Below, piece by piece: positions 9,034-31,609 of a DNA stretch of 32,028 nt; the first letter of the stretch is position 1; every line of letters begins with the position of its first letter. Below the pieces are notes generated by a model. That model ran no database searches. It had not been told where the DNA came from and saw nothing but the letters and a program-made list of their open reading frames with translations. Source of the stretch: Candidatus Moraniibacteriota bacterium (GTDB lineage: Bacteria; Patescibacteriota; Minisyncoccia; Moranbacterales; GCA-2747515); assembly GCA_018401135.1 (NCBI GenBank), contig JAGYLL010000009.1, forward strand, positions 1 through 32,028, given 5' to 3'. Position numbers and translations under genes: made by a program.

Positions 9034-11031
9034 ATGAATACACATTCCAAACTTTTTGTCGATGTTGCTATTATAGCAAAAGCCCTTCCTCGAAAGAAAA
9101 ATATCTATACCTATATAGGTGATACTTCTTTTTCTGTGGGTGATTTAGTAGAAATTCCTTTTGGCAAAAAGACGACTCAAGGCATTATTCTTTCTTTTCA
9201 CAAGACCGCTCTTGCAAAATATGCTTATAAAAAAATCTCTCGAACACTACAATCTCCCGCAATAACCCCCCCTCAACACCAACTCGCGCTTTTTCTTTCT
9301 CGAGAATACATAACCCCATTTGGAAGTGTTGCTCGCCTCTTTTTTTTCCCCAAAAAACCAAAAAAAGAAATACCTCCCCCCCCTCCATCTCACGAAGTCA
9401 TACTCAAACAAGAAGTACCCAAAAAACTTTCAAAAGAATGCAAGGAAATACTCACCTATCTAGAAGACCAACGAAATATTTTTCTCAAAGAACCCTCAGG
9501 AGAATATCGTTTACAAAAAGTCCTTGCTCTTGCCAAAGAAAAAACGAAAAATGGCTCCCAAGCACTCATAATTTTTCCTGATAAAAATACTCTTTTTTGG
9601 GCATATGAGAAAGCACGTTCTTTTTGGAAAGATGATTCTCTCTCTCTCCTCTATGGAGGACTTTCTCCTTCACAAAAATACAGAGACTGGAAAAAAATAT
9701 CATCTGGTTGCTCTCTTATTTTAGGTACGAAAAGTGCTCTTTTTGCTCCCTACAAAAACCTTAGTCTTATCATTATCGAAGATGAACATCGATCTGGACA
9801 TAAACAACGCGAAGTAGCTCCTCGCTACGATACACGCCGTGTTGTTTTGGAACTAGCAAAAATTCATCAATGTCATGTCATTATGACAAGTGCCACTCCG
9901 AGTATTGAATATACTCATCACGCAAAAACAGCTTCATGGAAAATACTCTCTCCAAAAAAAACTCTTCAAAAAAAACAAGCACCTCTTATCGTTAATATGA
10001 AACTTGAAGTATACAAAAATAAAAGAAAATACGCTTTCAAGACAAATCGACTTATTTTCTCTGACCTTCTTTTGGAAACAATACGACAAACGATCAAAAA
10101 TAAAGATCCATTTTTTCTTTTTGTCTCTCGCAAGGGAATGCATACCTTGAGTTTTTGTTCTGATTGCAAAAAAATGCTTCTTTGTCCACAGTGCAAACAC
10201 ATTCTTTCTGAACAAAACAATGAAACCTATGCTTGTTTGTCTTGTGGATTTATCTCCAAAACATTTATGGAATGCCCCCATTGTCATAGTATGCATTTCA
10301 CTCACAAAAATACGGGTACTCAAGCTATAGAAAAAACACTCAAGACTCTTTTTCCTTCTACTCGAATTATGCGAGTTGACGCAGACAATCTAGAATCAAA
10401 AATAAAGAAGAAGGAAGCTTTTCAAGAAAAAATCCAAAAAGCCGATATATTAATAGGAACACCGACCCTTGCTTACCTACCATCCTTGCGAAAACCTGGA
10501 GGAATTGGTATTATCGAAGCAGAAAGTTTTTTACAATGGTCTGAATACCTTGCCGAAGAACAAGCGTTCCAATTTTTTACCCATGTAGCAAACTTTTCCC
10601 ATTTGGACGAAGAAAAAACTCTTCCTTTCATTATACAAACATACAATGAAAATCATAGAGTTATTCGCGCTCTTTCTCACCACAAAGAAGAAGTCCTTTG
10701 TACAAAAGAAATTCGAGAAGAAAGAAAAGACCTCTTTTACCCTCCTTTTTCAAGAATGATTCTCCTTTCAAGTTCCCATAAAACACCAAAAAGAGCAATG
10801 AAAGAATCTGAAGAAATATATACCCTTTTGAAAAAATCCCTCCCCTCAAACACTCGCATTTCTCCACCTTTCTCCCCTATGCGAAAGAAAAAGGGCGATC
10901 TCTCTCAAAAAAATATCGTCATAAAAATACCAAAAAAATGGAAGAGTCCTCTTGATGCCAAAGTATATGAAACTCTTCTTTTGCTCCCCCCTCATTGGAT
11001 TATAGACATAGATCCCAAAGAAATACTCTAA
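9034..11031 (+). CDS. priA: PriA-like primosome protein with degenerate helicase motifs
   Basis: PriA recognises stalled forks and reloads the replisome. I start at the ATG at 9034 (MNTHSKLFVDVAII), since the track's 77 extra residues have no PriA likeness; 665 residues result. The N-terminal 3'-OH-binding domain, GTKSALFAPYKNLSLIII, PRYDTRR and SATPS (motif III) are conserved. All eight zinc cysteines are present as four CxxC pairs (CSDC, CPQC, CLSC, CPHC; about residues 375-418). The ATPase motifs are not: the Walker A site, normally GVTGSGKTE, reads KEPSGEYRLQ; Walker B DEEH reads EDEH; motif VI QVAGRAGR reads HVANFSHL. ATP hydrolysis is therefore unlikely. Mycobacterial PriA-like proteins are, as I recall, also considered helicase-dead. 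It precedes def by 19 bases in a plus-strand run. Confidence 0.88.
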   Translation: MNTHSKLFVDVAIIAKALPRKKNIYTYIGDTSFSVGDLVEIPFGKKTTQGIILSFHKTALAKYAYKKISRTLQSPAITPPQHQLALFLSREYITPFGSVARLFFFPKKPKKEIPPPPPSHEVILKQEVPKKLSKECKEILTYLEDQRNIFLKEPSGEYRLQKVLALAKEKTKNGSQALIIFPDKNTLFWAYEKARSFWKDDSLSLLYGGLSPSQKYRDWKKISSGCSLILGTKSALFAPYKNLSLIIIEDEHRSGHKQREVAPRYDTRRVVLELAKIHQCHVIMTSATPSIEYTHHAKTASWKILSPKKTLQKKQAPLIVNMKLEVYKNKRKYAFKTNRLIFSDLLLETIRQTIKNKDPFFLFVSRKGMHTLSFCSDCKKMLLCPQCKHILSEQNNETYACLSCGFISKTFMECPHCHSMHFTHKNTGTQAIEKTLKTLFPSTRIMRVDADNLESKIKKKEAFQEKIQKADILIGTPTLAYLPSLRKPGGIGIIEAESFLQWSEYLAEEQAFQFFTHVANFSHLDEEKTLPFIIQTYNENHRVIRALSHHKEEVLCTKEIREERKDLFYPPFSRMILLSSSHKTPKRAMKESEEIYTLLKKSLPSNTRISPPFSPMRKKKGDLSQKNIVIKIPKKWKSPLDAKVYETLLLLPPHWIIDIDPKEIL

Positions 11032-18464: not shown

Positions 18465-21200
18465 ATGTCACGATTTGTCCATCTTCATACTCACTCGCAC
18501 TATTCCCTCCTTGATGGTCTTGGGAAAATAGATGAGCTCCTTGATCGAGCCAAAGAATTAGGAATGAATGCTATGGCACTTACCGACTATGGCAATCTTT
18601 ATGGTGCGGTAGAATGGTGTGTTACTGCCAAAGATCGTGGCATAAAGCCGATCATTGGATGTGAAATGTATGTGACAAAAGATATGAGAAGTCAGGGAAA
18701 TGGTCCTGATGACAAGAGACGCTATCACATTACCCTTCTTGTTGAAAATCAAACGGGGTACAAAAACCTTCTCAAGCTCGTAACCCTTTCGTATTTGGAA
18801 GGATTTAATGATAAGCCACGTATAGACAAAGAAACACTTGCTCTCTATCACGAAGGACTTATCGCTCTTTCTGGTTGTCATGAAGGTGAGGTTCCAAGTA
18901 TGGCCAAAACAGGAAATGTAAAAAAAACGAAAAAGATAGCGCTCGAATATCAAGCTATTTTTGGAAAAGATAATTTCTTTCTTGAGATTCAAGACCATCC
19001 ACAATCAAAGGATCAAAAGATCATAAATGAAACACTTATAACTCTCTCCAAAGAAAATGATTTCCCTCTCGTTGCCACAGCAGACATTCACTACATATAT
19101 CCACAAGACGCTCCTGTTCAAGATATTCTTCTTTGTATACAAACAAACAGAAAAGTATACGAAAAAGATCGTATGAATTATATGGACTATGATCTTTCTC
19201 TGCGTTCTCCAGAAGATATGGAGAGAATATTTGCCCATATTCCTGAAGCTATCGAGAATACGGCAAAAATTGCTGATCGATGTAATTTTCAAATAAAACT
19301 TGGGGAGACAGAACTTCCTACCTATCCCCTTCCCGATGGAGAAACGCCTGATTCTTATCTTCGCCAACTCACCCTCGAAGGACTTAGTCGTCATTACAAA
19401 GATGATGAAATCACACAAGAGCACCGAGAGCGAATGGAATACGAACTCGATATTATACAAAAGACGGGGTATAGTGCATACTTTCTTATCGTGCAAGATT
19501 TTATCAACTGGGCAAAAAGACAAGGTATCGTGGTTGGTCCTGGAAGAGGATCGGCTGCGGGAAGCTTTGTCTCCTATCTCGTGGGAATTACCAATATTGA
19601 TCCTATAAAGTATCATCTTCTTTTTGAACGATTTCTTAATCCCGAGCGTGTCTCTATGCCTGATGTAGACATTGACTTTGCCGATGATCGTCGTGATGAT
19701 GTTTTGGATTATTGTCGCCAAAAGTATGGCAAAGATCACGTTGCTCATATCATCACCTTTGGAACTATGGCCGCACGAGCCGCTATTCGTGATGCAGGAA
19801 GAGCGCTTGGTCTCCCCTATGATTTTTGCGATAAAACTGCCAAGCTGATCCCTATGTTTTCTACTATCAGTCAAACACTTGAGAATGTTCCTGATTTTAA
19901 ACTTCTCTATGATAAAAATGCTGAAGCCAAAAAGCTCATAGCCAGTGCCAAGCGTTTAGAGGGTGTGTGTCGCCATGCTTCTGTCCATGCTTGTGGTATT
20001 GTCATTACCCCAAAACCAGTTTCTGATTATACTCCTATGCAGAGAGTGGCTGGACACGATGAGTATGTAACCCAATATTCTTCTTCTACAAAAACCAGTT
20101 ATGTTGAGAAAATAGGACTTCTCAAAATGGATTTTTTGGGACTCAGAAACTTAACTATCATACAAAACACGCTTCGTATTATAAAAAAAATACATAATCT
20201 CACCATCGAAATAGATGCGATTCCTTTGGATGATGCCAAAACATACGAACTGCTTCAAAAAGGAAAAACAACGGGTGTATTTCAACTCGAATCTTCTGGA
20301 ATGAAACGCTATCTCAAACTTCTCAAACCAACGGTTTTTGAAGATATTATCGCTATGGTTGCTCTCTACAGACCTGGTCCTATGGAGTGGATACCTGATT
20401 TCATCGATGGAAAGCATGGTCGAAAGGTTATAGAATATGTTCATCCTATACTCGAACCTATACTCCAAGAAACGTACGGGGTGGCTGTGTACCAAGAGCA
20501 AGTTATGCGTATAGCTCGAGATCTCGCTGGTTTTACTATGGGAGAGGCGGATGTATTGAGAAAAGCTATGGGAAAGAAAATACTTGAACTCATTCAAGAA
20601 CAAAAAATAAAATTCATTCAAAGATGTGTCGAAAATGGAGTTGCCGAAGAAATTGCTACGAAAGTATTTACGTTTATTGAGCCTTTTGCTGGATATGGAT
20701 TTAATCGATCACATGCTGCTTGCTATGGTCTTATTGGTTATCAAACAGCCTATCTCAAAGCACACTACCCCGCAGAATTTATGGCAGCTCTTATGACTTC
20801 AGATCAAGATAATTCTGATCGTATAGCCATAGAAGCAACAGAATGTCGCGATATGGGTATAGAAGTTCTTCCTCCTAATATAAATAAGAGCTTTGAAGAA
20901 TTTGCTGTGGTTTTGGAAGAAGGTGATCCCAAGGATACAAATACTTCTGAAAAAAAGGTTACGCTTCGTTTTGGACTTAATGCTATAAAAAACGTAGGAA
21001 AACCTGTGTGTGCAGAAATTGTTTCTGAAAGAAAAAGAAATGGACCCTATACATCTCTTACACAATTTATCGAACGAGTTCACACACGAGATCTCAATAA
21101 AAAATCTATTGAAGCCTTAGCAAAAGTCGGGGCTTTAGAGGATGTTTCTGAAAGAAATGAAGTGCTTTACGAATATAGAAAATATATTACATTTTTCTAA
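18465..21200 (+). CDS. dnaE: DNA polymerase III alpha subunit, intact catalytic core but truncated at a frameshift
   Basis: This is the replicative polymerase. The open frame of 911 residues holds the PHP domain (FVHLHTHSHYSLLDG, FLEIQDHP, VATADIHYIYP), palm motifs GRGSAAGSFVSYLVGI and PDVDIDFADDRRDDVLDY (about residue 400, catalytic Asp pair), and fingers motifs LYRPGPM, YGVAVYQEQVM, LRKAMGKK and GYGFNRSHAACYGLI. It ends in the helix-hairpin-helix region (SIEALAKVGALEDVSERNEVL), after which the last residues YEYRKYITFF belong to a shifted frame. The family is normally about 1000-1200 residues. The missing clamp-binding motif, OB fold and C-terminal domain are still encoded downstream but out of frame (next entry). 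If translated as is, the protein could polymerise but would lack its clamp tether. Confidence 0.95.
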   Translation: MSRFVHLHTHSHYSLLDGLGKIDELLDRAKELGMNAMALTDYGNLYGAVEWCVTAKDRGIKPIIGCEMYVTKDMRSQGNGPDDKRRYHITLLVENQTGYKNLLKLVTLSYLEGFNDKPRIDKETLALYHEGLIALSGCHEGEVPSMAKTGNVKKTKKIALEYQAIFGKDNFFLEIQDHPQSKDQKIINETLITLSKENDFPLVATADIHYIYPQDAPVQDILLCIQTNRKVYEKDRMNYMDYDLSLRSPEDMERIFAHIPEAIENTAKIADRCNFQIKLGETELPTYPLPDGETPDSYLRQLTLEGLSRHYKDDEITQEHRERMEYELDIIQKTGYSAYFLIVQDFINWAKRQGIVVGPGRGSAAGSFVSYLVGITNIDPIKYHLLFERFLNPERVSMPDVDIDFADDRRDDVLDYCRQKYGKDHVAHIITFGTMAARAAIRDAGRALGLPYDFCDKTAKLIPMFSTISQTLENVPDFKLLYDKNAEAKKLIASAKRLEGVCRHASVHACGIVITPKPVSDYTPMQRVAGHDEYVTQYSSSTKTSYVEKIGLLKMDFLGLRNLTIIQNTLRIIKKIHNLTIEIDAIPLDDAKTYELLQKGKTTGVFQLESSGMKRYLKLLKPTVFEDIIAMVALYRPGPMEWIPDFIDGKHGRKVIEYVHPILEPILQETYGVAVYQEQVMRIARDLAGFTMGEADVLRKAMGKKILELIQEQKIKFIQRCVENGVAEEIATKVFTFIEPFAGYGFNRSHAACYGLIGYQTAYLKAHYPAEFMAALMTSDQDNSDRIAIEATECRDMGIEVLPPNINKSFEEFAVVLEEGDPKDTNTSEKKVTLRFGLNAIKNVGKPVCAEIVSERKRNGPYTSLTQFIERVHTRDLNKKSIEALAKVGALEDVSERNEVLYEYRKYITFF

Positions 21201-27206: not shown

Positions 27207-27664
27207 TTATATTGCTCCATCTTTTTTTATTTGATCAAGTCGAACAGAAAGAAGTTTTGAAACACCATCATCCATAGTTACTCCATAGAGAACATCGGCT
27301 TGACGCATAGTTTCTCTATTATGAGTTATCACGATAAATTGTGTTTGGCTCGAAAGAGTTTGAAGAAGACTACTAAATCTTCGAGAATTTATTTCATCAA
27401 GAGCTGCTTCTACCTCATCAAGAACAACAAAAGGGGGTGGGTTATGGGCTATAATCGCAAAAAGCAATGACAAAGAGACAAGTGATCTTTCTCCTCCTGA
27501 GAGCATAGAAAGTCTATTTACTCGTTTTTTTGGAGGTTGTATTTTTATATCAATACCCCACTCAGACACACCCTCTTCTTTTTCGTCATCTTCATTACCA
27601 TTTTCTGTTTCTTGTAAAGTTTCTTTCGATACTAACCGAGTTTTTTCAAGTGAGGCTGTTCCCC
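27207..27664 (-). pseudogene. smc: SMC C-terminal ATPase head, separated from the N-terminal part by a frameshift
   Basis: This frame carries the C-terminal half of the SMC ATPase: GGTASLEKTRLVSK, an acidic linker (NGNEDDEKEEG), WGIDIKIQPPKKRVNRLSMLSGGERSL (ABC signature), FVVLDEVEAALDEINSRR (Walker B and D-loop) and QFIVITHNRETM (H-loop). It is read in the -1 frame relative to the N-terminal part. The family pattern F.GG.A.L is restored only if the G run on the coding strand (CCCC, 27661-27664) had one more base, so a single-base deletion there, real or a sequencing slip, explains the split. The internal Met at 27569 is not a likely independent start, since the head would then lose its first strands. 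Confidence 0.9.
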
Positions 27665-29497
27665 ATCAAACATGAGAGTGAAATATTTTCCAAATTCTTG
27701 ATTTATCTTTATAAATGCCTTTTTAAAATCTTTTTCGATACGTTCATTCATTTGGACAATTATTTTTTCCAGAGAAATCATAGCGTTTTCCAAGTCTTCA
27801 CTTTCTCTTAAAAGAAAATCGTAACGATCTTGAGTTTCTTTGTATTCTTGTGCGATCAAAGGATCTATACCTCCAATCATAGCAAGTTTGGATTGTAATC
27901 GCTCAATATGTCTTTCTGTTTCAAAAATATCTAACTTTTCCGAAAGTTCTTTTTGATCTGAAAGCAAAAGAGATTCTGGTTCCCTTCCTAATCGATTGTA
28001 TATTTCTTTGGAAAGATCCTCCATCTTCACCTCGCATCTCGTAGCTTCAATTTTTTTAGCATTATAGGTATTTTGTAAAGAAAAAAGAGTCTGTCGCAAA
28101 GAAGAGATTTCTTTTTCCATAGTAAAATAAGATTCATTAGAATTTTTTGTTTCTCCTATACATTCCTCAATTTCTTTTTCTTTTTTTTTCAATACCTTTT
28201 CTTTCTCTTCGATATCTTTACTAAGTCGAGCAATCCTTTGTTCATTTTCATGCATTCTCTGCTGAAAAGATTCTTCTTCTTTTTCCAAAAGACTCGTGTC
28301 ACGAGCAACTCTTGTTGTAGATTGTTCACACTCTTTATCCAATCGCTTCAAATCCTCCAAGAGATCATATGCCTCTTTTTTCTTAATTTCCCATTCAGAA
28401 AAATCTTTTATAGTTTGTAAAAAAGTAAAAATTTCTTGAAGTGTCTTTTGAATAGAAGAAAGTCGCTTACGAATAAAAGGGAGGTCGACAGGAATAATAT
28501 CAAATGTTTTTCGATTTTTATATCTTTCACGTTCCGCATCAGTAAAACCTTGATATTGAGCTCTTCGTCGCTCCAGATCGGAAATCTCACGATGAAACAA
28601 TGCTATTTCTCTTCGAATAGTATCTTGTTTCGAAGTATCTTGCATTTTTTTTGAAGATTCTTTTTGTTTTTCGATGAAACTATCCAATTTCCTTTCCAAA
28701 AGTTTCATCTCCCTTCCTGTTATGGACATAACTTCTTCATACTGAGCATATTCTAAGAGAAGATCATTCCACAATCGATAATAATATGGCTCTTGTGTAA
28801 GACGAAGTTCTTGTTCAGTATCCCGTCTTTGCTCTGCTTTTTTGGCCTGTCGTTTAAGAAGTCGGAGACGTGGCTCTATTTCTTCAAGGAGACGTGCTGT
28901 TTGTAAGAGATTTTCTCGCGTAGCTATAAGTTTCTTTTGGGATCTTTCTCTTTTTATTTGATAAGGCTTTACGCCCGCCGCCTCTTCGAGAATACTTCTT
29001 CTTTCCGAAAGAGAGGCATTAAGAATAGCATCTGACATTCCTTGATTGAGAACGCATTGGCTTTCCTTTCCAATTCCAATGAGAGCGAAAAGGTCTATTA
29101 CATCAATAAGTCGCACTCGAGAATCATTGATAAAATACTCCCCTTCCCCGCTCCTGTGAACTTTTCTTGTTACCGTGACATCACGATAATCAATATCAAT
29201 TTTTTTGTCAGAATTATCAAAAAAAAGAGACACCGATGATGTTCCCATCTGCGACCTCGATTTAGATCCTGAAAATATAACATCATGTGTTTTTTTTCCA
29301 CGAAGATTTTTAGCTGATTGTTCTCCCATAACCCAGCGAATAGCATCAGCTATATTTGATTTTCCTGATCCGTTTGGACCGACAATAGCAGTTACTCCAA
29401 AATATCTTTCTTCATCCTTTTCTTGAAAACAAAAAGGAAGCTCTGTTTTAGAGGCAAAAGATTTGAAACCATGAAGCGCTATTTTTCGCAAATACAT
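27632..29497 (-). CDS. smc: compact SMC-like ATPase, N-terminal head and coiled coils (frameshifted at its end)
   Basis: SMC proteins organise and segregate the chromosome. Residues 1-170 are a good N-terminal head: MYLRKIALHGFKSFASKTEL, Walker A GPNGSGKSN (residues 40-48) and VMGEQSAKNLRGKKTHDVIF with the Q-loop. From about residue 170 to 560 the chain is charged coiled coil; the usual hinge of about 150 residues is not recognisable. The last in-frame stretch FGKYFTLMFDGEQ enters the C-terminal head, then a TAG follows after a frame slip. Joined with the downstream fragment the protein would be about 763 residues, against about 1150-1200 for standard SMC. It lies between the htrA-like and wzz-like genes; no scpA or scpB is in the window. 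Confidence 0.92.
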   Translation of the reverse strand: MYLRKIALHGFKSFASKTELPFCFQEKDEERYFGVTAIVGPNGSGKSNIADAIRWVMGEQSAKNLRGKKTHDVIFSGSKSRSQMGTSSVSLFFDNSDKKIDIDYRDVTVTRKVHRSGEGEYFINDSRVRLIDVIDLFALIGIGKESQCVLNQGMSDAILNASLSERRSILEEAAGVKPYQIKRERSQKKLIATRENLLQTARLLEEIEPRLRLLKRQAKKAEQRRDTEQELRLTQEPYYYRLWNDLLLEYAQYEEVMSITGREMKLLERKLDSFIEKQKESSKKMQDTSKQDTIRREIALFHREISDLERRRAQYQGFTDAERERYKNRKTFDIIPVDLPFIRKRLSSIQKTLQEIFTFLQTIKDFSEWEIKKKEAYDLLEDLKRLDKECEQSTTRVARDTSLLEKEEESFQQRMHENEQRIARLSKDIEEKEKVLKKKEKEIEECIGETKNSNESYFTMEKEISSLRQTLFSLQNTYNAKKIEATRCEVKMEDLSKEIYNRLGREPESLLLSDQKELSEKLDIFETERHIERLQSKLAMIGGIDPLIAQEYKETQDRYDFLLRESEDLENAMISLEKIIVQMNERIEKDFKKAFIKINQEFGKYFTLMFDGEQPHLKKLG

Positions 29498-29628: not shown

Positions 29629-30822
29629 CTATTGAGACATTTCTTCTCCAGAAAGAGAAATCTCTATTTCTTCCGTACCACGAAGAATTGAAAGGGTGAT
29701 TTTCCCGTCCTTACTGACATCTTGCAAAGTACGAGAGAGAGTATCTTTTGCTGTTATGGGGATTTCATTTACTTTTGTTATAATATCACCGTAGCGAAGA
29801 CCTGCTTTTTGTGCCGGAGAATTATACAAGAGAACTGATGTGCTTAGAGTACTTTCTGGAAAAGCCAACCATGCACCTTCTTCTACCGCAAGGTTATTTT
29901 TTTTTGCAATAATCGGAGAAATTGGCGTATATGATATACCGAAAAAGAACGTTTCTTGAAAAGAGTCTTCGATAATACGTGCGACACTCTCTCGAACTTC
30001 ATTGGATTCTAAAATGTATTCAAAAATATCACTTCCAACTTTTCTTAAACCAAGTATACCCATGAGTTCACCATCATAACTCAAAACAGCAGATCCTGAT
30101 TTTTGTACTTTTCCAGTAAAAGAAGTCTTGAATACCCCCTGATGTCTTTCTGTGGAAGCAAGAAATTGTGGTGCAAGAGAGAAATAGGGATCATAGTTTT
30201 CTATAGTTCCAGAGAGGAATCGATTGGTATTTTTTGCATCGAAAAATTCTAATGCTATGACTTTTCTTCCTAATTGAAAGTCTGAAGAATCTGCAAAAGA
30301 AAGGGGTGAAAAATTACTACCGGAAATACGAAGAAAAGAAAGTTTTGTAAAAATATCTTGTCTCAAAAATTCTGCTGAATACCACACACCATCAAAAGAC
30401 ATAACTTCATACGCCCATCCCTCAGAAGAAAGATCCTCCTCTTCTAAAAAAGAAGTTACAATAAGCCCATCATTCGTGACTATAATTCCTGTTGCCTCCA
30501 AAATTTGTTCTTGCAAAGAATTTGATTCCGATGAAGATGCTTTAATATACACAATAGATTTTTCAGCATTTCTTGCAATACGATCAAGTCGATCATCTTC
30601 TCGAATGATAATTTCTTCCTTGTTATTTATGATAGTAGTATTCTCTCGAGAAGTTCCCAAAAGATCCCACTGAGAAAATACTTTCATTTCAGCGAGGATA
30701 GGCAAGAAAAATCGAATAGTCACTATAGCGACAATACCACAAAGAAAAGCAAAAAATGTCCATTTCGCTATCCATTTCAATGAAAGAAAAAACCATCGTA
30801 TATAGGTAATCATAGTTTTCAT
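29629..30822 (-). CDS. HtrA/DegP-like membrane protein with PDZ domain, catalytic triad lost
   Basis: HtrA proteins are envelope serine proteases. I start at the ATG at 30822 (MKTMITYIRWFFLSL); the ATG at 30813 is an alternative. About 397 residues: an N-terminal membrane helix (FFAFLCGIVAIVTIRFFLPIL), a short coil, a trypsin-like domain and a C-terminal PDZ domain (SPAQKAGLRYGDIITKVNEIPI). The trypsin-like core is recognisable (TGIIVTNDGLIVTS, SFADSSDFQLGRKVIALEF, GELMGILGLR), but the His of TNxHVV is replaced (TSFLEE), the Asp of DLAVLKI is replaced (KLSFLRI), and GNSGGPL reads KSGSAVL, keeping only the Ser. Proteolysis is unlikely; a substrate-binding or chaperone role fits better. It lies between the UMP kinase and smc genes. 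Confidence 0.85.
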   Translation of the reverse strand: MKTMITYIRWFFLSLKWIAKWTFFAFLCGIVAIVTIRFFLPILAEMKVFSQWDLLGTSRENTTIINNKEEIIIREDDRLDRIARNAEKSIVYIKASSSESNSLQEQILEATGIIVTNDGLIVTSFLEEEDLSSEGWAYEVMSFDGVWYSAEFLRQDIFTKLSFLRISGSNFSPLSFADSSDFQLGRKVIALEFFDAKNTNRFLSGTIENYDPYFSLAPQFLASTERHQGVFKTSFTGKVQKSGSAVLSYDGELMGILGLRKVGSDIFEYILESNEVRESVARIIEDSFQETFFFGISYTPISPIIAKKNNLAVEEGAWLAFPESTLSTSVLLYNSPAQKAGLRYGDIITKVNEIPITAKDTLSRTLQDVSKDGKITLSILRGTEEIEISLSGEEMSQ

Positions 30823-30910
30823 TATATACCAAAAAGGAAAAGAAACCAAATAACTAATTATTTCTCACTAACCGAAAAATATATATCAAAATTTTTCTCT
30901 ACTCTCCTCT

Positions 30911-31609
30911 TTAAGAATAAACCTTCGTTCCCCTGTAAACACCTCCTTCTAAGTAGTTCTGGAAATTCTTGAGATCTTTTCCATTCATAATAGCCACCTC
31001 AAGATTTATTTCTTCAGCCAGTTTTGAAGCGACAGGATCGAAAGGAGCATTAAGACCTGGTCTCCATACATTACCCACAATATTTCGAAAATCTTTCCAG
31101 GAAATTTTTTCTACTTTTTCAGCATCTTTGTATTTTTTTGGATCTTTAGTATACACATAATCAATATTAGAAAGATTTACTAGAGAAGTTATGTCGAGAT
31201 ATTTTGCCAAAAGTACAGCGTCGTAATCAGTAGAACATCCGGGTCTATATCCAGCTGCTATGATAATTGATTCCTTACAATACGAAAAATCCTCAAGATC
31301 ATGAGGATTTGTGTTGATTCGAGGATAGGCATAATCACGAAAAATAGTTCGCAAAAGCTGTGCATTAAGACGTGTAGAATGAATACCAAGCCAATCACGA
31401 TCTTCATCAGTCAATGTTTCGTCAACACCATAGGCCGCATCTTGATATTTTCTTGCTGTTCTTCCGCCACCCGCAATAAGAATAAATTTCCAACCATTTT
31501 CTATGTAGAAAATAAGAAGCTTTTTTAATTCTTTGAGATATACCCAATCAATGTCATCTGGGACAATAAGAGATCCTCCGAGAGAGATGATACACATTTT
31601 CTTTTGCAT
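30911..31609 (-). CDS. pyrH: UMP kinase, archaeal-type (amino-acid kinase fold)
   Basis: The enzyme makes UDP from UMP in pyrimidine nucleotide synthesis. The 232-residue product begins with the glycine-rich strand IISLGGSLIVP, followed by FILIAGGGRTARKYQDAA, LGIHSTRLNAQLL, IIIAAGYRPGCSTDYDAVLLAKYL and NLSNIDYVYTKDPKKYKDA, a typical amino-acid kinase layout. The GGGRTARKY and STRLNAQLL motifs are closer to archaeal UMP kinases than to the hexameric bacterial PyrH, an arrangement I associate with CPR genomes. PFDPVASKLAEE and AIMNGKDLKNF complete the C-terminus. It starts 51 bases after the Ada-like gene's stop, with no promoter visible between them. Confidence 0.88.
   Translation of the reverse strand: MQKKMCIISLGGSLIVPDDIDWVYLKELKKLLIFYIENGWKFILIAGGGRTARKYQDAAYGVDETLTDEDRDWLGIHSTRLNAQLLRTIFRDYAYPRINTNPHDLEDFSYCKESIIIAAGYRPGCSTDYDAVLLAKYLDITSLVNLSNIDYVYTKDPKKYKDAEKVEKISWKDFRNIVGNVWRPGLNAPFDPVASKLAEEINLEVAIMNGKDLKNFQNYLEGGVYRGTKVYS

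Follow-up and report, generated by a model that had tools for sequence, protein, structure and literature searches.

A hinge-less Smc in Patescibacteria with a conserved unit at the tip of short arms

The window analysed here, a stretch of 32,028 nucleotides from a Candidatus Moraniibacteriota bacterium (contig JAGYLL010000009.1, assembly GCA_018401135.1), encodes what is probably the chromosomal Smc of a Parcubacterium, an ATPase of the Smc-ScpAB complex that bears a tip unit of ~60 residues where the canonical hinge is absent. That the protein is a Smc orthologue and at the same time devoid of a hinge can be stated with high confidence. The tip unit most likely replaces the hinge as the tip of the arm and putative dimeriser. 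The gene is read from the minus strand (29497-27207), and joining its two frames yields a chain of 763 residues, composed as follows:

28970-29497, minus strand: N-terminal half of the SMC ATPase head, residues 1-176, with the Walker A motif GPNGSGKSN and the QSAKNLRGK region
28505-28969, minus strand: outgoing coiled-coil arm, residues 177-331 (helices 179-288 and 292-324 in the model of a relative, L025)
28304-28504, minus strand: tip (apex) unit, residues 332-398, made of a strand (FDIIP), a helix, a turn, a helix and a strand, without CxxC
27698-28303, minus strand: returning coiled-coil arm, residues 399-600, containing the SMC segment IGGIDPLIAQEYKETQDRYDFL
27661-27664, minus strand: frameshift in a GGGG run, at which the relatives are uninterrupted
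27207-27697, minus strand: C-terminal half of the ATPase head, in two frames, with the LSGGERSL signature, the Walker B motif and D-loop FVVLDEVEAALDE, and the THNRETM switch

The missing hinge and the tip unit

The Pfam hinge profile (SMC_hinge, PF06470) finds no match in the window SMC. A lineage-adapted hinge profile, seeded with the hinge of a Magasanikbacteria SMC (L055) and iterated on the fetched SMCs, matches 48 of the 49 canonical SMCs as well as all 10 patescibacterial SMCs that bear a hinge; none of the 77 short SMCs, the 15 longer hinge-less SMCs or the 4 others is matched. Since this profile finds the hinge-bearing SMCs and no short ones, the absence of the hinge goes beyond a mere detection limit. 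The AlphaFold model of the middle of the window SMC contains no hinge either, and the protein is filed as a hinge-less Smc orthologue and not as a canonical Smc because the search for a central SMC_hinge was negative. A CxxC motif, the mark of a zinc hook, is not found in the arm region of 33 order-level and 44 class-level sequences, and a zinc hook was rejected on this ground. The window’s own genome was found to hold one SMC; a second, full-length SMC was not found in it.

The middle of the chain is not plain coil. Its centre, at "IIPVDLPFI", is a conserved unit of ~60-65 residues. The fragment 28211-28606, modelled with AlphaFold from 60 aligned sequences (mean pLDDT 94.1), displays a helix-strand-helix-helix-strand-helix order (fragment numbering: helix 2-30, strand 35-39, helix 42-65, helix 69-95, strand 97-101, helix 104-131), the core of which is a strand-helix-helix-strand unit. 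The model of L025, obtained from 69 sequences, has good heads, long arm helices and a tip at low to moderate confidence, with a strand (335-338), two helices (341-364 and 370-394) and a second strand (396-399). The sequence-only reading had correctly seen no hinge and had proposed the check for a Rad50 zinc hook, which proved negative. Its picture of a chain passing from head to short coil to head is not supported, as a conserved and confidently modelled unit occupies the tip; the turn that it tentatively placed near FTDAERERYKNRKTFDIIPVDLPFI comes close, the IIP itself lying in the first strand of the unit.

An apex profile built from the tip unit (consensus PVDLGYVKEKLSEIRKKQEKLLERLEKAEDLEDLEALKEEAKKIQQELEKLLKDVEKGKV) matches residues 336-394 of the window SMC with an E-value of 7.9e-14. 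At E<1e-3, it matches 33 of 33 order-level sequences, including that of the window, 27 of 104 from the class and 19 of the 59 further patescibacterial sequences without a hinge. At the same threshold, it matches none of the 49 canonical SMCs, none of the 10 hinge-bearing Patescibacteria and no shuffled arm. The centre of the unit is located at 0.48 ± 0.011 of the chain length. For many members of the class the match is weak, 11 of 60 newly fetched sequences being matched at E<0.1, and under lax limits (central position, E<10) it reaches 38 of these 60 vs. 1 of 49 canonical SMCs. Because only the lax limits reach this number, the unit is considered as diverged within the class and not proven in all of its members.

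By analogy with known SMC-type apices, two Smc chains are likely to be joined tip-to-tip through their tip units, which might, for instance, pack their two helical hairpins into a bundle lying over paired strands. ScpA would link the two heads at neck and cap, ScpB would bind ScpA, and ParB would load the Smc-ScpAB complex. ATP-driven head engagement would then move DNA through the ring, the arms of which would measure ~23 nm (an estimate at 0.148 nm per residue of the window coil) vs. ~47-50 nm. B. subtilis Smc carrying a Rad50 zinc hook in place of its hinge sustains normal growth on rich medium (PMC5344682), and Rad50 is functional with an SMC hinge instead of its hook (PMC6969161). As the hook works in Smc and the hinge works in Rad50, the hinge can be regarded as replaceable, which provides a precedent for dimerisation through another tip.

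In the main alternative, the tip hairpin would merely close each arm, the two chains being held by ATP-dependent head engagement and by ScpA/ScpB with no closed ring, an open-topped arrangement that is possible, if rather unlikely. The tip carries no known dimerisation motif (neither hinge nor CxxC). It is a simple helical hairpin that displays mostly one hydrophobic stripe, belonging to its own core, with few additional conserved hydrophobic positions, and a strong interface is thus not evident from the sequence. Furthermore, no solved structure matches the tip significantly: the PDB entries matched by sequence were exclusively designed coils and other proteins with long helices, regarded as chance matches, and the fold search against solved structures returned nothing below E 0.5, matches to the CsoR/InrS hairpin being not significant. 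However, the tip sequence is conserved beyond what is observed in ordinary arm coil, its position in the chain is fixed, and the two known SMC-type apices, hinge and hook, both dimerise and are interchangeable. Extended to the phylum, this alternative would mean that most SMC-bearing Patescibacteria possess a Smc-ScpAB without a closed tip, having exchanged the hinge early for a non-dimerising hairpin, and that the hinge-bearing ones have regained it; such a scenario is doubtful and a shade less probable than the arrangement itself. If true, a working condensin would exist without a tripartite ring.

It could also be argued that a strongly diverged or miniature homologue of SMC_hinge persists at the tip, as the unit occupies the position of the hinge and shows short strands at the base. 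This is very improbable: only ~80 residues separate the arm helices of L025 vs. ~115 for a hinge domain, the lineage-adapted profile stays silent on all short SMCs, the tip fold of two helices and two short strands is not the alpha/beta fold of the hinge, and no hinge structure occurs among the fold-search matches listed for the tip. A cryptic hinge was rejected on the combined results of Pfam, the iterated lineage profile and AlphaFold.

The gene, its heads and its partners

No single open frame spans the region 27207-29497. Two minus-strand ORFs lie in it, one of 621 aa (27632-29497) and one of 120 aa (27207-27569), which a single one-base -1 shift in the GGGG run unites. The DNA reads GAT GGG GAA CAG at the break, where the family has a Gly-Gly-x-Ala motif, and the shift recovers MFDGGTASLEKTRLV... 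(...MFDGGTASLEK...) in the joined chain. The smc of relatives being one uninterrupted frame, the frameshift is attributed to a sequencing error or to a private mutation. The homopolymer frameshift could suggest that a full-length smc was shortened by an assembly deletion or is decaying into a pseudogene, but this is barely conceivable, given that dozens of other genomes have uninterrupted genes of equal length and architecture and that the motifs beyond the frameshift are intact. In view of the uninterrupted relatives, the short arm is not ascribed to an assembly artefact.

The head motifs GPNGSGKSN, LSGGERSL, FVVLDEVEAALDE and THNRETM are intact on either side of the frameshift, and the split ABC ATPase head is complete, with Walker A, signature and Walker B all found. 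The SMC_prok_B profile (TIGR02168) aligns at its ends only, with positions 1-309 in the N-terminal head half, 837-1062 in the returning arm (27647-28333, for which the L025 model shows helices over 406-609) and 1069-1181 in the C-terminal head half (ORF 27207-27569, E 1.3e-54). From this restriction to the ends, it follows that ~530 central profile positions are missing from the window SMC, which scores below the profile cut-off of 567 bits (best single stretch, 323 bits). PF02463 (SMC_N) matches both head halves (E 6e-33 and 4e-28, respectively). The best fold-search matches of the head are crystal structures of Smc heads, and the L025 model has a high pLDDT over most of its head. The sequence-only reading had described an SMC-like protein of about 763 residues with two good ATPase head halves: the length and the motifs are borne out, and the break in the frame had not been mentioned.

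In the window genome, ScpA and ScpB are both encoded (G000:C23:8874-9503 and 9559-10029). The two were detected in all 37 order-level genomes, the window genome among them, and ParB in 19 of 19, the window genome having a parB as well. At the class level, 111 genomes have both smc and scpA, 7 have only smc, 5 have only scpA and 65 have neither (Fisher p = 5e-36, a value that is only indicative because related genomes are not independent). These 65 of the 188 class genomes, without a match to SMC or ScpA, include some rated as 98-100% complete. In three class loci (L044, L049 and L052), the short smc is immediately preceded by rnc, the gene for ribonuclease III, and the rnc-smc neighbourhood is familiar from other bacteria. 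The ScpA, ScpB and ParB partners, the co-occurrence of smc with scpA and the rnc synteny identify the window SMC as the bacterial Smc orthologue of a Smc-ScpAB complex. In the window itself, the neighbours of smc (29629-31609) encode a trypsin-PDZ (DegP-like) protease and an amino-acid-kinase-family protein, and rnc is not there. Further away (18465-21200), the window encodes a DNA polymerase III alpha of 911 residues, shorter than the usual DnaE, which apparently stops after the helix-hairpin-helix region.

A protein of the Rad50/SbcC, RecN or ASRP type, the plan of Rad50 and ASRP being also that of a head and a coil without SMC hinge, is hardly tenable: although weak ASRP and Rad50 profile matches exist, SMC_prok_B scores 411.6 bits on the 621-residue piece alone vs. 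23.6 for ASRP (cut-off 300 bits) and 20.6 for the best Rad50 profile, no CxxC zinc hook is present, and the ScpAB partners, the rnc synteny and the head fold agree with Smc.

Arm length, distribution and history

Between the head anchors, the arms of the window SMC span 160 and 206 residues (mean 183), compared to a mean of 371 in Bacillus Smc; this motif-based measure is usable for only part of the sequences from outside the order. On the scale of PMC5344682, after subtraction of a 27-residue offset, the arm is ~156 residues long vs. 344 in B. subtilis, i.e., about half, and lies close to a possible minor mode of SMC arm length at 163 residues reported in that study. Some hinge-less patescibacterial SMCs are nearly full-length, among them L176 and L186 (984 aa, cut by the ends of their loci) and L170 (1029 aa, reaching the locus end). 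Arm length and hinge loss are thus not strictly coupled.

An SMC match was obtained for 36 of the 37 order-level genomes, none of the 37 exceeding the TIGR02168 cut-off, and the 28 extracted smc ORFs with a complete start encode 757-801 residues. The class-level sample contains 118 of 188 genomes matching the short SMC, mostly as open frames of 700-800 residues, and a hinge above the cut-off in none of the 188, whereas the same search detects one in 10 of 14 control genomes. The short arm and the possible short-arm class noted by the sequence-only reading are both supported by these figures, the survey of lengths in related genomes having returned uninterrupted short genes. Of the 287 genomes sampled across the phylum, 96 have an SMC match and only 9 a hinge above the cut-off, leaving about 87 of the 96 SMC-bearing genomes without a hinge. 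Named relatives include Moranbacteria, Uhrbacteria, Azambacteria, Harrisonbacteria, Liptonbacteria, Kaiserbacteria and Lloydbacteria (Parcubacteria/Patescibacteria). The 9 hinge-positive genomes all come from two families, in which the open frames are 960-1079 residues long.

In a tree of the head domain (~340 columns), the hinge-bearing Patescibacteria are nested among the hinge-less ones. A constraint uniting all hinge-bearing SMCs is rejected with an AU p of 0.014, a value somewhat optimistic as the group was chosen after viewing the first tree. This nesting calls for at least two hinge changes, either a single replacement followed by a regain, or several losses. The former is favoured because the same tip unit is found in distant hinge-less lineages, and from this tree it is inferred that the hinge may have been replaced early and regained later within the Patescibacteria. 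Normal SMC hinges, possibly regained according to the head tree, are observed in a clade comprising the Magasanikbacteria SMC mentioned above and L157-L165 (families f128 and f146). Two other genomes (L156 and L166) have sub-threshold partial hinge matches (profile positions of about 16-55) in open frames of ~660 residues outside of their SMC places. Beyond the phylum, an Omnitrophota SMC of 1113 residues (L104:8001-11339) has no hinge-profile match, and its middle stretch, GIIGKIKAINVIAAT..., may be a partial hinge.

Comparison with known systems and meaning

The window SMC shares with bacterial Smc (TIGR02168; B. subtilis Smc) its ATPase heads and joint-proximal arm, and its genome, with one SMC found, shares the ScpA, ScpB and ParB genes, the rnc-smc neighbourhood being present in class relatives. 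It differs from bacterial Smc by the lack of a hinge, arms of about half the length, another tip unit and a score below the profile cut-off. A cluster of hinge-less SMCs in marine Actinomycetes, of metagenomic origin, has been reported (Sussfeld et al. 2025, PMC12153180), and the bare idea of a hinge-less SMC is therefore not new. These SMCs, found by homology and AlphaFold, also lack both hinge and CxxC. They belong, however, to another phylum, and the section devoted to them mentions neither a structured tip nor partner genes nor Patescibacteria. The engineered Smc(Zh) (Buermann et al. 2017, PMC5344682) is likewise a Smc-ScpAB whose hinge was swapped for an unrelated apex, in that case a zinc hook, whereas the exchange in the window SMC is natural, without cysteines and accompanied by shorter arms. 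Rad50/SbcC and the archaeal ASRP (ClsN/Sph) have SMC-type heads, an antiparallel coil and no SMC hinge, but carry a CxxC zinc hook, absent from the arm region of the window SMC. SMCL-1 of C. elegans is another natural SMC-like protein without a hinge; in contrast to the window SMC, this condensin regulator also lacks the coils and conserved signature-motif residues (PMC5373644). A literature search, with preprints and most subscription journals outside its scope, returned no report of a hinge-less SMC in Patescibacteria and no account of the tip unit, the intact ScpAB/ParB context or the patchy hinge in this phylum.

The hinge is regarded as near-universal in SMC complexes and is central to models of the ring, of the entry gate and of DNA binding. 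The present results suggest that the replaceability of the hinge, engineered in B. subtilis, has also occurred in nature. The tip unit is small (~60 residues) and amenable to direct testing in a laboratory strain. A large natural lineage possessing Smc, ScpA, ScpB and ParB, with another tip and half-length arms, constitutes an evolutionary test of which parts a condensin needs.
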